DNA of 64,000 bases, from NCBI RefSeq assembly GCF_003073135.1, contig NZ_PGDQ01000003.1, positions 62,001-126,000 of the forward strand. The letters run 5' to 3'. The translations under genes were made by a program, and so were the position numbers. This stretch comes from Euzebya rosea. GTDB lineage: Bacteria > Actinomycetota > Nitriliruptoria > Euzebyales > Euzebyaceae. This document shows positions 3,908 to 31,092 of this stretch, piece by piece; position 1 is the stretch's first letter, and each line of letters begins with the position of its first letter. A model generated the notes under the pieces. It was not told where the DNA came from. It saw nothing but the letters and a program-made list of their open reading frames with translations, and made no database searches.

Positions 3908-5370
3908 CCGCCCTCCGTCGTCGCGGTCGGGTCGACGAGCTGGTCGGCGGCGCGCGTCGACAGCTCCAGCACGGGCCCGGCGGCGAGCGAGACCACCAGG
4001 GTGCCCGCCACCAGCACACCCGTTCCGGCCACGGCCCGTGGTGACCATCGGGTCGTCGGGGCCGCGGGCGCGGGGTCGGGCTCCTCGCCCCAGAACGCCC
4101 CTGCCCACACCTTGGCCATGGACAGGATCGTCAGGAGCGACACCACGGTGCCGACGGCGACCAGCACCACCGCGTCGGCGTCCAGGCCCGCACGGAGCAC
4201 CGCCACCTTGGCGGTGAAGCCCGACAGGGGAGGGATGCCGGCCAGGCTGAGGGCCGGCACGGCGAAGGCCGCCGCGAGCAGCGGCGTCGACGTCATCAGC
4301 CCGCCGGTCCGCTCCAGCCGTCCGCTCCCGATCCGCTGCTCGACGGTGCCGGCCACGAGGAACAGCGCGGACTTCACCAGGATGTGGTGGACGACGTAGA
4401 AGACGGTGGCCGCAAGTCCCGCGGCGGTCGAGAGGGCCAGCCCGAACAGCATGTAGCCGATCTGGCTGGTGATGTGGAAGCCGAGGATGCGCCGGATGTC
4501 GGTCTGCGCCAGCGCACCGACGACACCCGCGAACATGGTCGTGCCGGCCAGGACGGGCAGCAGCCAGCCCAGCCCCTCGGGCACGAGGCCGAGCAACGAC
4601 TCGCCGCGGACCATCGCGTAGACCCCGAGCTTGGTCAGCAGGCCGGCGAGGAGGGCAGCCACCGGCACCGACGCCCGGGCGTAGGCGTCGGGCAGCCAGC
4701 CGAGGAACGGGAACGCCGCCGCCTTGGTCGCGAAGACCGTCAGCAGCAGCAGGCCGATGGCGTCCCCCGAGGCACCCAGCCCCGGCCACACCTCCGCCAG
4801 GAGGGTCAGGTTGACCGTTCCGGCCGTGGCGTACGTGGCCGCGACCGCGATCAGGAACAGGGTGCTGACCACCACGTTGGCGATGACGTAGGGCCGGGCG
4901 GCACGCAGGGTCGCCCCGGACGCCGGCCCCATCAGCAGCACGTAGCTGGCGACGAGCGAGACCTCGAAGCCCACGAACAGGGTGAACAGGTCACCGGTGA
5001 GCAGGCTGAGCGCCACCCCGGCGGCGAGCACGAGGTGGGCGGTGTGGTAGTGCGGCCAGCGCTGCTCGACCTCCGAGGCCACCATCGCGTGCACGTGGGT
5101 GGCCAGGACGACGAGGGCCGAGACGACCAGGATCAGGCAGGCGAGGAGGTCGGCGACGAGGGTGATGCCGACGGGCAGCCCCCAGCCGCCGACGTCGACG
5201 ACCTGCGGACCGTCCGAGGCGACCAGCGCGAGCAGCGCGACGCTGGCCACCGTCATCCCGAGGGACCCGAGGAGGCCGACCGTGCGGGCCGCCCGCCGGC
5301 GACGGCCGACGGCAAGTGCGAGCCCGGCCAGCAGCAGCGGCCAGACGATCGGAAGGGCAACGATGGTCAC
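3904..5370 (-). CDS. mrpD: Mrp antiporter subunit D (NADH-quinone oxidoreductase N/M-like)
   Basis: 488 residues, about 14 predicted helices. It belongs to the proton-conducting antiporter-like family shared with complex I subunits. The segment A-T-K-A-A-A-F-P-F-L-G-W-L-P-D-A-Y near residue 210 contains the conserved Lys and the proline of the broken helix; the N-terminal V-G-F-E-V-S-L segment supplies the conserved Glu. Overlaps mrpC and mrpE by four bases each. MrpD and MrpA together are thought to carry the proton path. Confidence 0.95.
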   Translation of the reverse strand: MTIVALPIVWPLLLAGLALAVGRRRRAARTVGLLGSLGMTVASVALLALVASDGPQVVDVGGWGLPVGITLVADLLACLILVVSALVVLATHVHAMVASEVEQRWPHYHTAHLVLAAGVALSLLTGDLFTLFVGFEVSLVASYVLLMGPASGATLRAARPYVIANVVVSTLFLIAVAATYATAGTVNLTLLAEVWPGLGASGDAIGLLLLTVFATKAAAFPFLGWLPDAYARASVPVAALLAGLLTKLGVYAMVRGESLLGLVPEGLGWLLPVLAGTTMFAGVVGALAQTDIRRILGFHITSQIGYMLFGLALSTAAGLAATVFYVVHHILVKSALFLVAGTVEQRIGSGRLERTGGLMTSTPLLAAAFAVPALSLAGIPPLSGFTAKVAVLRAGLDADAVVLVAVGTVVSLLTILSMAKVWAGAFWGEEPDPAPAAPTTRWSPRAVAGTGVLVAGTLVVSLAAGPVLELSTRAADQLVDPTATTEGG

Positions 5371-5720
5371 GAACGCTCCTCGGGACCGGCGGTGTCGTCG
5401 GAGGGTGACCCCGGTCCGCCGGTCGGGGTGTCGAACATCTGGTGGGCGAGCGCCAGCACGAGCGTGACGACCGCGAAGGAGATGACGATCGCGGTCAGCG
5501 CGAACGCCTGCGGCAGGGGATCGGCGACGTCAGCGGCGACGACGCCGTCCGTGCCGATCAGCGGTGCGGATCCGGGCAGGCGCGGCGACAGCAGCACGAG
5601 CACGGCCCCGTGTCCGAGCAGCACGGTGCCCAGCGCGATGCGGAACAGGTCGCGGTCCATCACCAGCCAGGCCCCCAGGCCCACGGTGACCGCGATGGCG
5701 AGCAGCAGCGGCAGCGTCAT
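5367..5720 (-). CDS. mrpC: Mrp antiporter subunit C (NuoK-like)
   Basis: 117 residues with three helices and a NuoK-like core (G-H-G-A-V-L-V-L near residue 36; D-P-L-P-Q-A-F-A-L-T-A-I-V-I near residue 72). The same frame is open further upstream, but that stretch lies inside mrpB; the ATG at 5720 overlaps the mrpB stop as ATGA and starts at the first helix. Confidence 0.94.
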   Translation of the reverse strand: MTLPLLLAIAVTVGLGAWLVMDRDLFRIALGTVLLGHGAVLVLLSPRLPGSAPLIGTDGVVAADVADPLPQAFALTAIVISFAVVTLVLALAHQMFDTPTGGPGSPSDDTAGPEERS

Positions 5721-6148
5721 CGCGCAACCTCCCGAACGCGGTCCAGGACCGCCGCGGCGAACCCGACGACGACGAGGAAGACGCCGACGTCGAAGACGAG
5801 CACGGTGGTCAGCTTGGCCTTGCCCAGCCACCCCAGCGGCACGGTGATGCCGCTGGCCGTCAGCAGCGGCGCGCTGGTCAGGGCCGGCCACAACGCCACC
5901 GCGGCGACGAGCAGCAGGCCGATCGCGACCAGCATCTCGCTGGGGGGCAGCCACCGGCGCAGGGCACGACGGGGGTCGGTCTCGTGGGCGATCGCGTCCA
6001 CGGCGAGCGCCCCCGCGACGACGAGGGCTGCGACGAACCCGCCACCCGGCTCGTCGTGACCGACCAGCAGCAGGTGCAGGGCGAACAGCAGGACCAGGGG
6101 GATGACGGTGTCGATGGCCCAGCGCAGGACCGGATCGTCGGAACGCAT
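5717..6148 (-). CDS. mrpB: Mrp antiporter subunit B
   Basis: 143 residues, four helices, with the MnhB hallmark G-H-D-E-P-G-G-G-F near residue 30. It is encoded separately from MrpA, as in Gram-positive mrp operons. Start is 1 nt after the mrpA stop. Confidence 0.94.
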   Translation of the reverse strand: MRSDDPVLRWAIDTVIPLVLLFALHLLLVGHDEPGGGFVAALVVAGALAVDAIAHETDPRRALRRWLPPSEMLVAIGLLLVAAVALWPALTSAPLLTASGITVPLGWLGKAKLTTVLVFDVGVFLVVVGFAAAVLDRVREVAR

Positions 6149-15851: not shown

Positions 15852-17056
15852 GAATCGCGAAGCTGCTTTCGGCCGGCCTGACCACGATCCTGCTGGTGCC
15901 CCTGCTGGCCACGGGCGCCAGCGCCGGTGAGCCCGGTGACATCGTCGCCCGCCTCGCGGCAGGGGTCGACCCCGCCGCCATCGCCGCGGCCAGCGGCACC
16001 ACCGTCGTCGAGCCGGTACTCGCGTCCCGCAACGTCTGGCGGTTCAGGTCCGACCACGACGCCCACAAGGCCGCCGACAAGATCAAGGGCCAGCGCGGCG
16101 TGGCCTACGCCGAGGAGGACATCACCGGATCGATCCCCGAGGCCGGCGGACGCATGAGCGGGTGGAACGACGGCGAGGCACGCGCCGTGCCCAGCACCGA
16201 GGAGGACTTCCGCAGCCAGCCGGCCGTCGGACTGCTCGACCTCGCCACGGCGCACGAGCAGACCCACGGCGCGGGCGTTCGGGTTGCGGTGCTGGACACC
16301 GGCGTCGACCCGAGCGCCGTCCCCTTCGTCACCCTGGACGGGGGCTGGGACCTCGTCGACGACGACCCGGACACCAACGAGGTCGCCAACGGCGTGGACG
16401 ACGACGGTGACGGGACGGTCGACGAGGCGCACGGACACGGCACCCACATCACCGCCATCGTCGACCTCACCGCTCCGGATGTCACCGTCGTGCCCTTCCG
16501 CGTCCTCGACGCCGAGGGCATGGGCAGCAGCTTCCTCGCCGCCGAGGCGATCTGGATGGCCCTCGAGCAGGGGGTGGACATCATCAACATCAGCTTCGGT
16601 GCGGGGGAGAAGTCCAAGGTCCTCGAGCGTGCCGTCAAGGACGCCGAGGACCAGGAGGTCGTGATCGTCGCCGCGGCCGGCAACAGCGGCACCGACGAGA
16701 AGCACTACCCGGCGGAGTTCGACGAGGTCATCGCGACCGCGGCGCTTGCAACGGACGGCACCGTCCTCGCCGGGTTCTCCAGCCGCGGGGGCTGGGTGGA
16801 CATCTCCGCCCCGGGTGAACACATCGTCGCTCCCGTCCCGGGCGGCGGGTGGGCGAGCTGGAGCGGGACGTCGATGGCCGCACCGTTCATCAGCGGCCAG
16901 GCCGCGCTGCTGCTGGCCCTCGCCCCCGACATGGACGCCGACGATGTCTGGAAGGCCCTCAAGGAGGACGCGCTCGACGTGGAGGACGGCGGCAAGGGGC
17001 TGGTCCAGCTCGTCGCGTCGATCGGATGGGTCCACGAGCACTACCTCGACGGCTGA
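15848..17056 (+). CDS. Secreted subtilisin-like serine protease (S8)
   Basis: 402 residues, ATGA overlap with the CHAT gene. A signal peptide (cleavage after A-T-G-A-S-A, near residue 26) is followed by a short inhibitor-like propeptide to about residue 95. The catalytic triad is complete: Asp150 (V-L-D-T-G-V-D), His197 (H-G-H-G-T-H) and Ser342 (S-G-T-S-M-A-A-P); the oxyanion Asn lies in A-A-A-G-N-S-G. An acidic D-D-D-G-D-G loop before the His may bind calcium. No C-terminal anchor. It is the only exported product of the four-gene operon, so it could be the effector or the extracellular arm of the response. Confidence 0.93.
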   Translation: MRIAKLLSAGLTTILLVPLLATGASAGEPGDIVARLAAGVDPAAIAAASGTTVVEPVLASRNVWRFRSDHDAHKAADKIKGQRGVAYAEEDITGSIPEAGGRMSGWNDGEARAVPSTEEDFRSQPAVGLLDLATAHEQTHGAGVRVAVLDTGVDPSAVPFVTLDGGWDLVDDDPDTNEVANGVDDDGDGTVDEAHGHGTHITAIVDLTAPDVTVVPFRVLDAEGMGSSFLAAEAIWMALEQGVDIINISFGAGEKSKVLERAVKDAEDQEVVIVAAAGNSGTDEKHYPAEFDEVIATAALATDGTVLAGFSSRGGWVDISAPGEHIVAPVPGGGWASWSGTSMAAPFISGQAALLLALAPDMDADDVWKALKEDALDVEDGGKGLVQLVASIGWVHEHYLDG

Positions 17057-26450: not shown

Positions 26451-27050
26451 GTGGCCCCCGTCGGCAGCAGCGACGTCCCGCGCGACTTCGACGCGGGCAC
26501 CCTCTGCCTGCAGTACCTCGACGCACCGGAGGACCCCGACGGGCTGTCGGACTGGGCGCGGACGCACCTGCGCGTCCGCGACCTCCTCCCGCTGACCGAA
26601 CGCGAGCGGCGCGACGCCCGGACCCTGCACGACGCGGTCAGCCGCATCGCCGCCGTCCTGGTCGTCGGTGGCCCGCCGGCCATCGGCGACATCGCCCGGC
26701 TGAACCGGCTGGCGGGGCAGCCGGACCTGGCCCCCCAGGTCGGGGCCGGAGGAGCTCGTGGCTGGCCGATCGAGGTCAGCCACGGACAGGTCCTCGCGAC
26801 CGTCGCCCGCGACGCGGTCCTGCTGGTCACCGACGCCGACCACGACCGGGTCCGGCGCTGCGCCGCAGAGGACTGCGACCTGGTGTTCCTGGACACGTCC
26901 AGGCCGGGTCGACGGCGGTGGTGCAGCATGTCGCGCTGCGGCAACCGCGCGAAGGTCCGTGCCCATCGGGCCCGTGCCGATCCGGTCCGCGCCGCAGATC
27001 CGGTCCACGACGCAGATCCGGTCCACGACGTCGAGGACGGACCGTCGTAG
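26451..27050 (+). CDS. CGNR zinc-finger, ABATE-domain protein (putative transcription regulator)
   Basis: 199 residues, GTG start. The C-terminal zinc finger reads C-A-A-E-D-C, then W-C-S-M-S-R-C-G-N-R-A-K-V-R-A-H-R, with four cysteines and the CGNR signature. The N-terminal helical ABATE-like region begins D-A-G-T-L-C-L-Q-Y-L. Members are presumed stress-linked DNA-binding regulators; the ligand is unknown. The last 25 residues contain three A-D-P-V-x repeats encoded by an 18-bp tandem repeat (26979-27024). Its stop codon TAG is part of a possible -10 for the next gene. Confidence 0.85.
   Translation: MAPVGSSDVPRDFDAGTLCLQYLDAPEDPDGLSDWARTHLRVRDLLPLTERERRDARTLHDAVSRIAAVLVVGGPPAIGDIARLNRLAGQPDLAPQVGAGGARGWPIEVSHGQVLATVARDAVLLVTDADHDRVRRCAAEDCDLVFLDTSRPGRRRWCSMSRCGNRAKVRAHRARADPVRAADPVHDADPVHDVEDGPS
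26979..27024 (+). repeat. 18-bp-period tandem repeat at the 3' end of the CGNR gene
   Basis: GATCCGGTCC recurs at 26979, 26997 and 27015, in frame. Confidence 0.8.
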
Positions 27051-27060: not shown

Positions 27061-27618
27061 ATGCCACGCACCAGGGTCGATCCCGTCCTGACCGCGATCG
27101 TGGAGGCCGCGACCCGGGGGACCGGCGCCTCGCACGGCCTGCTGCTGCGCATCGAGGGGCGGGTCATGCGGGTGGCTGCCAGCGCCGGTGCCCTCGGCTG
27201 GGACGTCGTCGGCGAACCCATCTCCGCGGGCGAGGGCGTCGCCGGCTACGTCGCCGCCTCGGGGCAGCCGCTCGTCCTGTCGGCGGAGTCCGCCGACCCG
27301 AGGCTGGGGGAGGGGACCGCCAGCCTGCTGGGGCACAACCCCTCCTCCGTCCTGGCCGTGCCCGTCGACGGGGACAGCCGGATCGTCGGCGTGCTCGAGC
27401 TGATCGACCCCGACGACGGCCTGTTCGACGTCGCCGACACCGAGCAGGCGATGCTGCACGCGGCCGTCGCCTCCGCCGCGCTGACCGACGACCGCCTGGG
27501 TGCGCTGGCCGACGTGCCCGAACCCGCGGAGCTCGCCGCCGAGCTCCGGCGCCTGGCCGACGCCGACCCCGGCCGTTACGCCACCGTCGCCACGATCATC
27601 GAGGCGCTGGTCCGCTGA
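27061..27618 (+). CDS. GAF-domain protein
   Basis: 185 residues, soluble, built of a single GAF domain (residues about 8-145: G-A-S-H-G-L-L-L-R-I, P-I-S-A-G-E-G-V-A-G-Y-V-A-A-S-G, S-S-V-L-A-V-P-V, I-V-G-V-L-E-L-I-D-P) plus a short helical tail. No output domain. GAF domains bind small ligands or mediate protein contacts. Its stop overlaps the next start by one base, so it is co-produced with the cytoplasmic subtilase and could be its sensor or adaptor. Confidence 0.82.
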   Translation: MPRTRVDPVLTAIVEAATRGTGASHGLLLRIEGRVMRVAASAGALGWDVVGEPISAGEGVAGYVAASGQPLVLSAESADPRLGEGTASLLGHNPSSVLAVPVDGDSRIVGVLELIDPDDGLFDVADTEQAMLHAAVASAALTDDRLGALADVPEPAELAAELRRLADADPGRYATVATIIEALVR

Positions 27619-28553
27619 TGCCCCGTTCCGACATCCCGGCATGGGCCAAGGACTCCTCGGTCATGCGGTTGCCCGACGCCATCCGCCTGGGCCAGATCAC
27701 CCCCGAGTGGGCGTGGGAGGGCGCCGACGGCTCGGGGGTGCGGGTGGCGATCGTGGACAGCGGCGTCGACGCCGACCACCCGGCGCTCGACGGCTGTGTC
27801 GACGTCGCCGAGGGTGTGGCCCTGCGGCTCGGCCCCGACGGCGAGGTCGAGGAGGTCCGGGGAGCCCACCGCGACGCGTTCGGCCACGGCACCGCCTGCG
27901 CCGGCATCGTGCACGACCTCGCACCCGGTGCACGGATCACCAGCGTCAAGGTGCTCGGCGAGGGCCTCGCCGGCAAGGCGGCGGTCTTCCTGCGCGGACT
28001 CGCGTGGTGCGTCGAGCAGGGCTACGACGTCATCAACCTGTCGCTGGGCACCACACGCGAGGACTGGGCCCTGCCGTTCCACGAGGTGTGCGACCGCGCG
28101 TACTTCGCCGGTTCCCTGGTCGTGACCGCCGCCAACAACGTCCAGCGCCCGTCGTGGCCGTCGTTGCTGTCCAGCGTGGTCAGCGTGGCCTGCAACACCA
28201 CCGACGACCCCGAACGCTTCCACTTCAACCCCGACCCGCCGACGGAGTTCCTCGCCCGCGGCGTCGACGTCGACGTCGCCTGGCGCGGCGGTCAGCGGAT
28301 CACCGGGACCGGCAACTCCTACGCCGCCCCGCACATCGCCGGCATGGCGGCCCGCATCCTCTCCAAGCACCCCGGCCTGCGACCCTTCCAGGTCAAGACG
28401 ATCCTGTGGGCCACCGCGGCCAACGTGCAGGAGGCGCCCAGCCGTCCGGGGTCGATGCGCCCGCGGGCCTCGCTGTCCGCACGGGCCTCCGGGGTGTTCG
28501 ACCTGGAGCAGGTGCGTGCGGGAGAGCCCCGAGGGGCCAGCCGGCCCGCGTGA
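27618..28553 (+). CDS. Cytoplasmic subtilisin-like protease (S8)
   Basis: 311 residues without signal peptide, propeptide or membrane segment. Triad complete: Asp47 (A-I-V-D-S-G-V-D), His90 (F-G-H-G-T-A-C-A-G), Ser234 (G-N-S-Y-A-A-P-H); oxyanion Asn in T-A-A-N-N. The usual G-T-S-M-A-A-P is replaced by G-N-S-Y-A-A-P. About 50 C-terminal residues beyond the catalytic fold are Arg/Ala/Pro-rich. Coupled to the GAF gene by TGATG. An intracellular regulatory protease is most likely; the substrate is unknown. Confidence 0.88.
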   Translation: MPRSDIPAWAKDSSVMRLPDAIRLGQITPEWAWEGADGSGVRVAIVDSGVDADHPALDGCVDVAEGVALRLGPDGEVEEVRGAHRDAFGHGTACAGIVHDLAPGARITSVKVLGEGLAGKAAVFLRGLAWCVEQGYDVINLSLGTTREDWALPFHEVCDRAYFAGSLVVTAANNVQRPSWPSLLSSVVSVACNTTDDPERFHFNPDPPTEFLARGVDVDVAWRGGQRITGTGNSYAAPHIAGMAARILSKHPGLRPFQVKTILWATAANVQEAPSRPGSMRPRASLSARASGVFDLEQVRAGEPRGASRPA

Positions 28554-29772: not shown

Positions 29773-31092
29773 GTGAGCCAGATCGCAGAGCGGGCGGAGT
29801 CCAGCGTCTACACCCCCGACGAAGTCCTCCTTCGTCGGTTCGGCATCGTGCGCGCAGTGGGGGGCGGGGCCTACATCATCGCCTGCGTCATCATCGGGCT
29901 GATCTACGGCACCACGGCATGGCCGGTGCTGCTGGGCATCCCGGTCCTCGCGGTCGTCACGACCATCTACTTCCGGACCTCGCTGACCGTCCCCAGGACC
30001 TCCGTGGCCCTGTCGCTGGTCGCCGACGCGATCGTGCTCGGTGGGGCCGCGGCGTTCGTCGGCGGGACCGGATCGGGCACCGGCGCGCTGTACGTCATCC
30101 CGATCGTGTCGGCCGGCATCATCCTCGGACCGACCGCGGCGACCAGCTTCACCACCCTCTCCGTGGCGCTGGCCTGGCTGCAGCTGGCGAGCGAGGAGTG
30201 GCTGTACACCCCCGTCGCGCTGCACCGCCCCGACCTCGGCGACCGCGTCGTGGTCCTCATGATCATCACGGCCGTGCTGATCAGCGTCGGCTACCTGACC
30301 GGTACCTACGCCTCCAGCCTGCAGGACAACATCGCCGAGGCCGGACAGTCCGCCTCGGAGGTCGCCAAGCGGACCCGCCGACGCCGATCGTTCGTGCGGC
30401 AGGCAAGCATCGACGTCCGTGGACCCCTCGGCGCGGTCGAGCGGGTCGCCGACCGGCTGGACTCCGCCGACGCCCTCGACGCCGACACCCGCCGTGCCCT
30501 CGCCGCCCAGCTGCGCATGCGGACCGCCCAGCTCGAGGGCGGCATCGAGCAGCTCGCCGACGTCGGCGCGCTCGACGAGGCCCGCGACGCCAAGCCCCAG
30601 GCCGTGCAGCTCGGACGCGTCGTCGCCGACTGCCTCCACGCCCTCGGGCCGCGCCTCGGTGACCACGAGGTCCACGTCGACGTCCCGCCCATCCGGGTCG
30701 TGGGGGACCGGCGAGCCGCCCGGCGCATCGCCTACAACCTCCTCGAGAACGTCGCCGAGCACACCCCCGCCGGCACCACCGTCTGGGTCGAGGCGCGGTC
30801 CACCGGCGGCCAGGGCGTCCTCGTCGTGACCGACGACGGTCCCGGCGTACCATCGGGCATCGCCCATCGGTTGTTCGACGCCCCCGACGAGGGTGGCGGG
30901 CCGCGGGTCGGCATGCCGCTCGTGAAGGAGCTCGTCGACGCCATGGGAGCGGAGATCACCTACGAACCCCGCGCGGCCGGTGGCTCCATCTTCCTCGTCG
31001 GCTTCCGGCTCGCCCCACGCGACGCCCCGTCGGCCGACGACGCCGACGACGGACCGGGTGCACACTCGACGGCAGACATCGCACAGGCCTGA
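29773..31092 (+). CDS. Histidine-kinase-like membrane protein lacking the phospho-acceptor His
   Basis: 439 residues. About six helices (residues 25-180) form a membrane sensor. The dimerisation helix carries Q-A-S-I-D-V-R-G-P-L-G-A-V where kinases have S-H-E-L-R-T-P-L; Ile213 replaces the His. The ATPase domain looks intact: N-box N-L-L-E-N-V-A-E-H-T, D-D-G-P-G-V-P-S-G, and a G2 box G-G-P-R-V-G-M-P-L. It probably cannot autophosphorylate on the normal site and may act as a pseudokinase, heterodimer partner or ATP-driven switch. No response regulator is adjacent. C-terminal tail acidic. Confidence 0.85.
   Translation: MSQIAERAESSVYTPDEVLLRRFGIVRAVGGGAYIIACVIIGLIYGTTAWPVLLGIPVLAVVTTIYFRTSLTVPRTSVALSLVADAIVLGGAAAFVGGTGSGTGALYVIPIVSAGIILGPTAATSFTTLSVALAWLQLASEEWLYTPVALHRPDLGDRVVVLMIITAVLISVGYLTGTYASSLQDNIAEAGQSASEVAKRTRRRRSFVRQASIDVRGPLGAVERVADRLDSADALDADTRRALAAQLRMRTAQLEGGIEQLADVGALDEARDAKPQAVQLGRVVADCLHALGPRLGDHEVHVDVPPIRVVGDRRAARRIAYNLLENVAEHTPAGTTVWVEARSTGGQGVLVVTDDGPGVPSGIAHRLFDAPDEGGGPRVGMPLVKELVDAMGAEITYEPRAAGGSIFLVGFRLAPRDAPSADDADDGPGAHSTADIAQA

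Follow-up and report, generated by a model that had tools for sequence, protein, structure and literature searches.

The gene pair at the locus

The locus lies in a 64,000-nucleotide stretch of Euzebya rosea DNA that was analysed as a whole and is referred to here as the window. The following features were located, in window coordinates.

26451–27050: CGNR gene (CGNR/ABATE; PF11706 8.6e-22, PF07336 7.4e-13), upstream of the pair
27061–27618, plus strand: GAF-domain gene, ATG at 27061 and TGA at 27616–27618, 185 aa (Pfam GAF 2.8e-12)
27616–27620, plus strand: TGATG stop/start overlap of the GAF and S8 genes, one base (A) common to both
27618–28553, plus strand: S8 protease gene, ATG at 27618 and TGA at 28551–28553, 311 aa (Pfam Peptidase_S8 2.2e-28)
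27633–27644, plus strand: IPAW segment, protease residues 6–9, a candidate inhibitory N-terminal segment like that of intracellular subtilisins (ISPs)
28308–28331, plus strand: TGNSYAAP active-site stretch, protease residues 231–238, with Asn replacing Thr before the catalytic Ser

The first-pass annotation, made from the letters of the sequence, had described a GAF gene joined to an S8 protease gene at a TGATG junction and preceded by a CGNR gene. Both reading frames are present and overlap by a single base, and Pfam assigns the upstream gene to CGNR/ABATE. The two genes are adjacent in all four congeners (G000–G003), across three different neighbourhoods, with identities to the window's proteins of 72–95% for the S8 protein and 70–93% for the GAF protein in three congeners. 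G000 and G003 match the context of the window (cysS, dapB, CGNR, the pair, thyX, kinase, dapA, rnj). In G002, dapB and dapA-rnj are close by, but the genes ahead of the pair are different and CGNR is missing; in G001 the pair sits at an unrelated location. Because the pair persists across these differing contexts, we regard it as the unit and the CGNR gene as a local neighbour. The earlier suggestion that the CGNR protein is a target or regulator was therefore dropped, and the gene was rejected as a third member, since it is gone from beside the pair in two of the four congeners (G001 and G002).

A membrane histidine-kinase-like gene (29773–31092 of the window; HATPase_c, PilS-like transmembrane region) lies downstream and is found near the pair in three of the four congeners. 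It was also rejected as a third member: it adjoins the protease gene in G002, lies past thyX in G000 and G003, and is not by the pair in G001. The window holds a second subtilase-like stretch at 16235–16984 (open frame of 442 aa), 29% identical to the pair's protease. Assignment to a defence system was discarded, as PADLOC returned its generic subtilase model only (71.4 bits) together with weak IetS matches, and none for the GAF or CGNR proteins. Phage origin was discarded as well, with no matches in phages at E 1e-40; subtilases on three viral contigs are only 26–27% identical.

Protease fold, active site and N-terminal segment

The S8 protein of the window scores 99.9 bits against PF00082 (gathering cut-off 21.8). 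Asp47, His90, Ser234 and the oxyanion Asn174 are invariant in an alignment of 15 family members. The AlphaFold model is a plain subtilisin domain spanning about residues 18–271 (mean pLDDT 76.8), of which residues 29–272 superpose on solved subtilisins with Z of about 26 over some 215 residues. The structure search gave no new fold; only one intracellular serine protease was among the 60 matches listed, which excludes no reading. We take the protein to be probably an active endopeptidase with a subtilisin fold, belonging to a family of its own.

A hydrophobic N-terminal stretch is absent from the protein, the best 17-residue Kyte–Doolittle mean being 0.52 for starts within residues 1–40. Because of this, and because the modelled fold is that of a mature subtilisin domain, the earlier view of a cytoplasmic protease lacking a signal peptide fits well. 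The companion claim that the enzyme has no propeptide holds only in part: the modelled domain is the mature one, but a conserved N-terminal segment lies ahead of it. The annotation had also pointed to GNSYAAP as a departure from GTSMAAP. That is correct, and it is a family trait. GNS before and at the catalytic Ser is present in 54 of 57 members (42 GNSF, 11 GNSY and 1 GNSC), whereas among 30 control subtilases drawn from the same loci set 26 have GTS, none has GNS and four gave no match.

The N-terminal segment contains P-[AE]-[WYF], positioned 40–45 residues ahead of the catalytic Asp in 49 of the 57 members and in 0 of the 30 control subtilases. When the four congeners and 11 loci picked by sequence pattern are set aside, 36 of 42 members have it. 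Residues 1–17 of the window's protease, including IPAW, have pLDDT values below 50 and no defined place in the AlphaFold model. ISPs, according to PMC6220982, are likewise cytoplasmic without a signal peptide, and their short N-terminal segment contains a Pro some 41 residues ahead of the catalytic Asp. In the Planococcus enzyme of that paper, the inhibitory LIPY occupies residues 6–9 and the catalytic Asp is Asp49; in the window's protease IPAW occupies residues 6–9 and the catalytic Asp is Asp47. By analogy, this LIPY-like position suggests that the PA[WYF] segment does the same inhibitory job. The xPA[WYF] segment would cover the active site inside the cell, as LIPY does in ISPs.

The GAF partner

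The model of the GAF protein (pLDDT 88.0) comprises a GAF fold at about residues 7–141 and a C-terminal helical extension at about residues 144–185, with helices at 155–168 and 170–184. The protein had been taken for a single-domain GAF protein; the GAF domain stands, but the helical part reaches beyond the GAF fold. The nearest solved folds are PDE2A GAF-B (Z 17.6, rmsd 3.0, 141 aligned), PDE10A (Z 17.1) and PtsP (16.9), which are tied; DevS/DosS and a cyanobacterial adenylyl cyclase (16.4) come next. These matches are a mix of cyclic-nucleotide and other GAFs, and their Z values are close together. The GAFs that bind cyclic nucleotides (cNMPs), namely PDE2A, PDE10A, the cyanobacterial adenylyl cyclase and Lcd1, resemble the window's GAF in fold (Z 15.1–17.6), and the D-K...F...D.E positions of the pair GAFs recall the NKFDE motif of that group, but the N is D in most members. 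In the 53 alignable partners (of 56), these positions hold D in 51, K/R in 42, F in 43, D in 49 and E in 37. The window's GAF reads D-P...F...D.E and does not match NKFDE. Since the basic residue is lost (P for K/R), cyclic-nucleotide binding is less likely for this protein; a cyclic nucleotide is a candidate ligand in the relatives and a weaker candidate in the window's GAF.

We find it plausible that a ligand of the GAF protein gates the protease. The partner would bind a small ligand, a cyclic nucleotide being the first candidate in relatives, and this would release or position the protease. Alternatively, the GAF protein could be a structural partner, chaperone, protease inhibitor or precursor-binding adaptor that senses no ligand, a role to which its obligate pairing, its C-terminal helical extension and the basic residue missing from the window's copy would all be suited. 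Most members, however, keep the GAF fold with the D-[KR]-Xn-F-X3-D-x-E stretch, and cyclase and cNMP-binding genes lie close by (see below). The adaptor version also has to contend with leaders that vary among loci while the pair stays constant, which speaks against leader binding. We regard a non-sensing partner as possible, if on balance doubtful.

Conservation of the pair beyond the genus

Contigs of GTDB were scanned with a four-member profile together with the patterns IPAWAK and TPEWAW. The scan returned 11 loci, which are biased towards that N-terminal stretch because the patterns were used to pick them; all 11 have a GAF gene next to the protease gene. Their labels are Acidimicrobiaceae, Acidimicrobiia, Pseudonocardia, Thermoleophilia, Thermomicrobiales, Mycobacterium, Proteobacteria, Actinobacteria, Streptomyces, Bacillota and Thermoactinospora. 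A 15-member profile matched 10 of 396 Actinomycetota genomes below 1e-100, and after a gap the matches resume at 9e-53 with ordinary subtilases; in Chloroflexota, the phylum of G411, 33 of 301 genomes matched at 6e-98 or better.

The GAF gene is adjacent to the S8 gene in 56 of 57 loci (53 genomes from Actinomycetota, Chloroflexota and others), and at the single locus without it the contig stops 193 bases upstream. Gene order is GAF-first in 44 pairs, S8-first in 11 and divergent in one. The 55 same-strand pairs overlap by four bases in 26 cases, by one base in five and otherwise in eight, and the other 16 have gaps of at most 41 bases. On the Miltoncostaea oceani plasmid NZ_CP064357.1 the two genes are annotated in succession as 'S8 family serine peptidase' and 'GAF domain-containing protein'. 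The first-pass annotation had proposed looking for co-occurrence elsewhere and had held that separation of the genes in relatives would count against the coupling; with adjacency in 56 of 57 loci, that objection falls away. The GAF and S8 genes are a real, widespread and conserved unit. We infer that their products form a physical complex. The 57 loci hold no fused GAF–S8 protein, and this counts against the reading of a two-protein protease.

Genes neighbouring the pair in relatives

Neighbouring genes were identified with seeds drawn from the 57 loci themselves, by homology, and counted within about 10 kb of each protease gene. The loci contain cNMP-binding domains in 31 cases, class III cyclase domains in 18, ABC exporters in 17, LanC/kinase-type proteins in 10 (weak in G532), radical SAM proteins in six and ATP-grasp proteins in two. 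In 83 control loci (273 kb, short and mostly from other taxa; duplicates and loci chosen for LanC, SPASM or ABC were left out), no matches were obtained with the seeds for cyclases, cNMP-binding domains, radical SAM proteins and LanC. Pfam and NCBIfam models identified LanL in L098 (680.8 bits, cut-off 650) and LanKC in L095 (724.9 bits, cut-off 575), radical SAM proteins in L100, L107 and L096, and Guanylate_cyc in L102 and L106. A cNMP domain forms the C-terminal part of exporters in L098 (5.9e-25) and, more weakly, L100, and is also carried by an MFS protein in L105. The ATP-grasp label is a reading only, because model support is weak (0.00038 in L107, none in L106).

Several transporters thus carry fused regulatory domains. 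In the ABC exporters at L098:8655-11717 and L100:7274-10543 these are FHA and/or cNMP domains, and in the MFS protein at L105:5725-7416 a cNMP domain. In L096 a haem-oxygenase-like iron-containing redox enzyme (5302–5994; PF14518) sits between the radical SAM and class III cyclase genes and belongs to the run of genes that includes the pair.

Of the 301 Chloroflexota genomes, 17 gave a match when searched for LanL. Thirteen long matches (above 430 bits) occur in 11 genomes, and the remaining six genomes have matches of LanC-only lengths. Seven of the 13 long matches lie at most 1.1 kb from the protease gene of a pair. The pair is present in six of the 11 LanL-carrying genomes versus 27 of the 290 others (Fisher p 3.5e-4). 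The neighbourhoods of relatives point to the maturation of small ribosomal peptides rather than to the role first envisaged, that of a regulatory protease with a transcription factor as its target. Because the pair often adjoins genes for such peptides, the protease probably cuts small modified peptides under the control of its partner.

Candidate precursors and a junction motif

Candidate precursors carry a motif, [DE]-V-[ESV]-[GA]-[YFHQ], at the leader/core junction. They are found in eight of eight loci with both LanL and the pair, as small ORFs of which most have NHLP-like leaders, and several match NHLP-clan RiPP models below their cut-offs. Junctions at these loci read GDVEGY, SSEVSGY (two loci), GEVSAY, PEVSGY, GDVVGF, GEVSGY (four copies) and AEVVGH. 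Like junctions occur in other cluster types, in L035 (DVEGYAAICWYY), L107 (DVEGQGNLINSLC), L031 (EVEAF, twice) and L032 (EVSGF). In six LanL loci without the pair, a profile of the pair-linked precursors found no motif-bearing precursor (best E 0.98), which means that no like precursor is there and does not prove a different one.

At many loci of Chloroflexota, and at some elsewhere, the neighbouring peptide consists instead of repeats, for example DDTEGHRAKLPGAA-type units in L164 and DDVEGH units in L157. The repeat form of the motif is D-[VT]-E-G-H, and peptides built of such units (or DDTEGQ) lie by the pair at the following positions.

L164:10857-11138
L157:11185-11439
L170:5382-5618
L156:7951-8487
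L094:10761-11171

No Pfam or NCBIfam model matches these repeat peptides, which by sequence look like multi-core precursors. NHLP-leader-like small proteins without a core were also seen by the pair at L222:10587-10853 (Miltoncostaea, Thermoleophilia) and L093:10502-10759 (G200), with a sigma factor gene close.

The motif is present in 58 of 5910 small ORFs from the 57 loci and in six of 2848 from 101 control loci (shorter and from other taxa), ORFs with masked letters being left out. At least two copies are found in 16 small ORFs and in none of the controls; the reversed motif gave 10. These counts are descriptive and no blind test, because the motif was drawn from the same loci. In relatives with readable context, the S8 protein is predicted to cut precursors at [DE]-V-[ESV]-[GA]-[YFHQ], cleaving lanthipeptide-like and other modified peptides once, between leader and core, and the multi-core D-[VT]-E-G-H repeat peptides many times over.

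Another protease might cut the neighbouring precursors at a variant double-glycine-like site (EVSG-Y), leaving the pair with a different job. EVSG is, we assume, similar to double-glycine-type leaders, and some loci lack a captured exporter. A C39 peptidase domain is nevertheless absent from all five exporters examined, and LanL loci without the pair have no recognisable motif-bearing precursors. We consider this explanation distinctly improbable and retain the pair's own protease as the enzyme that would cut at the motif.

The pair in the window's genus

Precursor and modifying-enzyme genes stand beside the pair in many relatives and not in the window's genome. The neighbour types counted above are missing near the pair throughout the genus, save for ABC ATPases in G001, and no small ORF of the window contains the junction motif. 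Searches of the genus found no L101-type precursor, and for an exporter orthologue gave generic ABC matches only, none spanning the N-terminal part. LANC_like and SPASM proteins were found only in G002; neither turned up in the genome of the window or in the other two of three congeners. There are no D-x-E-G-H repeat peptides in the genus; the four genomes hold 125 scattered motif matches (35 in G000, 37 in G001, 22 in G002 and 31 in G003; 2–6 for the control pattern). The motif falls within a predicted gene in 10 of 30 fetched genus loci, with products of 237–821 aa in every case. A motif-based precursor in the genus was rejected on account of this scatter and of the size of those proteins.

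The window's pair lies among housekeeping genes (dapB, dapA, rnj). This setting, with no peptide genes, together with the ISP-like size and N-terminal layout of the protease, favours a ligand-gated regulatory or housekeeping protease that degrades cell proteins; peptide clusters of certain lineages would then have borrowed the protease, with the older general role persisting in the copy of the window. In the tree, however, the genus groups with G407, G408 and G409 (support 100/99). The pairs of these three adjoin or follow an ABC exporter, and that of G408 also lies with a radical SAM gene and two Cys-rich precursor-like peptides. The specific junction motif in adjoining peptides likewise argues against general protein degradation, and we judge this account unlikely. 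The pair is kept apart from peptide genes in the genus; a gene at another place may encode its substrate, or its role may have changed.

Discussion

Our preferred reading, to which we give a probability of about 0.6, is that the pair specifies a cytoplasmic protease made of two proteins, coupled in translation, that matures small ribosomal peptides and is restrained by its N-terminal segment and its GAF partner. A more specific version is rather unlikely as a whole. It envisages a second-messenger-gated protease whose GAF partner senses a ligand that the neighbouring class III cyclases produce and lifts the PAW segment off the active site, so that the S8 protein frees cores at [DE]V[ESV][GA][YFHQ], including those of an undescribed multi-core D-[VT]-E-G-H repeat class spread in Chloroflexota.

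The best NCBIfam match of the window's protease is the QhpE model NF049966 (5.9e-36; 123.9 bits, below the equivalog cut-off of 165), and all 15 members scanned match it. QhpE, which acts in quinohemoprotein amine dehydrogenase biogenesis, is a subtilisin-like leader-type protease of the cytoplasm whose substrate is a crosslinked peptide. The pair's protease differs from it in the family-specific N-terminal motif and GNS, and we know of no GAF partner for QhpE or, equally, for ISPs. It differs from ISPs in having PA[WYF] rather than LIPY/F and in its peptide-gene context, where ISPs serve protein recycling. The PatA/PatG model TIGR03895 (26.6 bits, cut-off 421.05) and the T7SS mycosin model TIGR03921 (100 bits, cut-off 278.75) score below their cut-offs.

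Other S8/subtilisin-family proteases of peptide maturation are ElxP, which is cytoplasmic, and PatA/PatG (PMC10885120, available part); their cutting sites differ from the motif predicted for the pair. The AmyP-type S8 proteases of class III lanthipeptides have a recognition sequence, (T/S/A)EVE, that resembles the E-V-[SE] seen here; the available part of PMC10885120 makes no mention of a GAF partner for them, whereas one is present here. According to the same part of that source, the leader proteases of many lanthipeptides and other RiPPs are unknown or encoded outside their clusters.

Neither the GAF–S8 pair nor VEGH peptides are described in titles and abstracts of the literature searched, which is mostly without subscription journals, and within it the pair is apparently undescribed. 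The pair and its predicted cutting motif offer a direct candidate protease for the class IV lanthipeptides of Chloroflexota and for repeat peptides. If our reading is true, this protease would be the first of its kind, within the literature searched, to come with a sensor-type partner of its own, and it would offer an answer to how a cytoplasmic subtilisin stays harmless without an exported propeptide.
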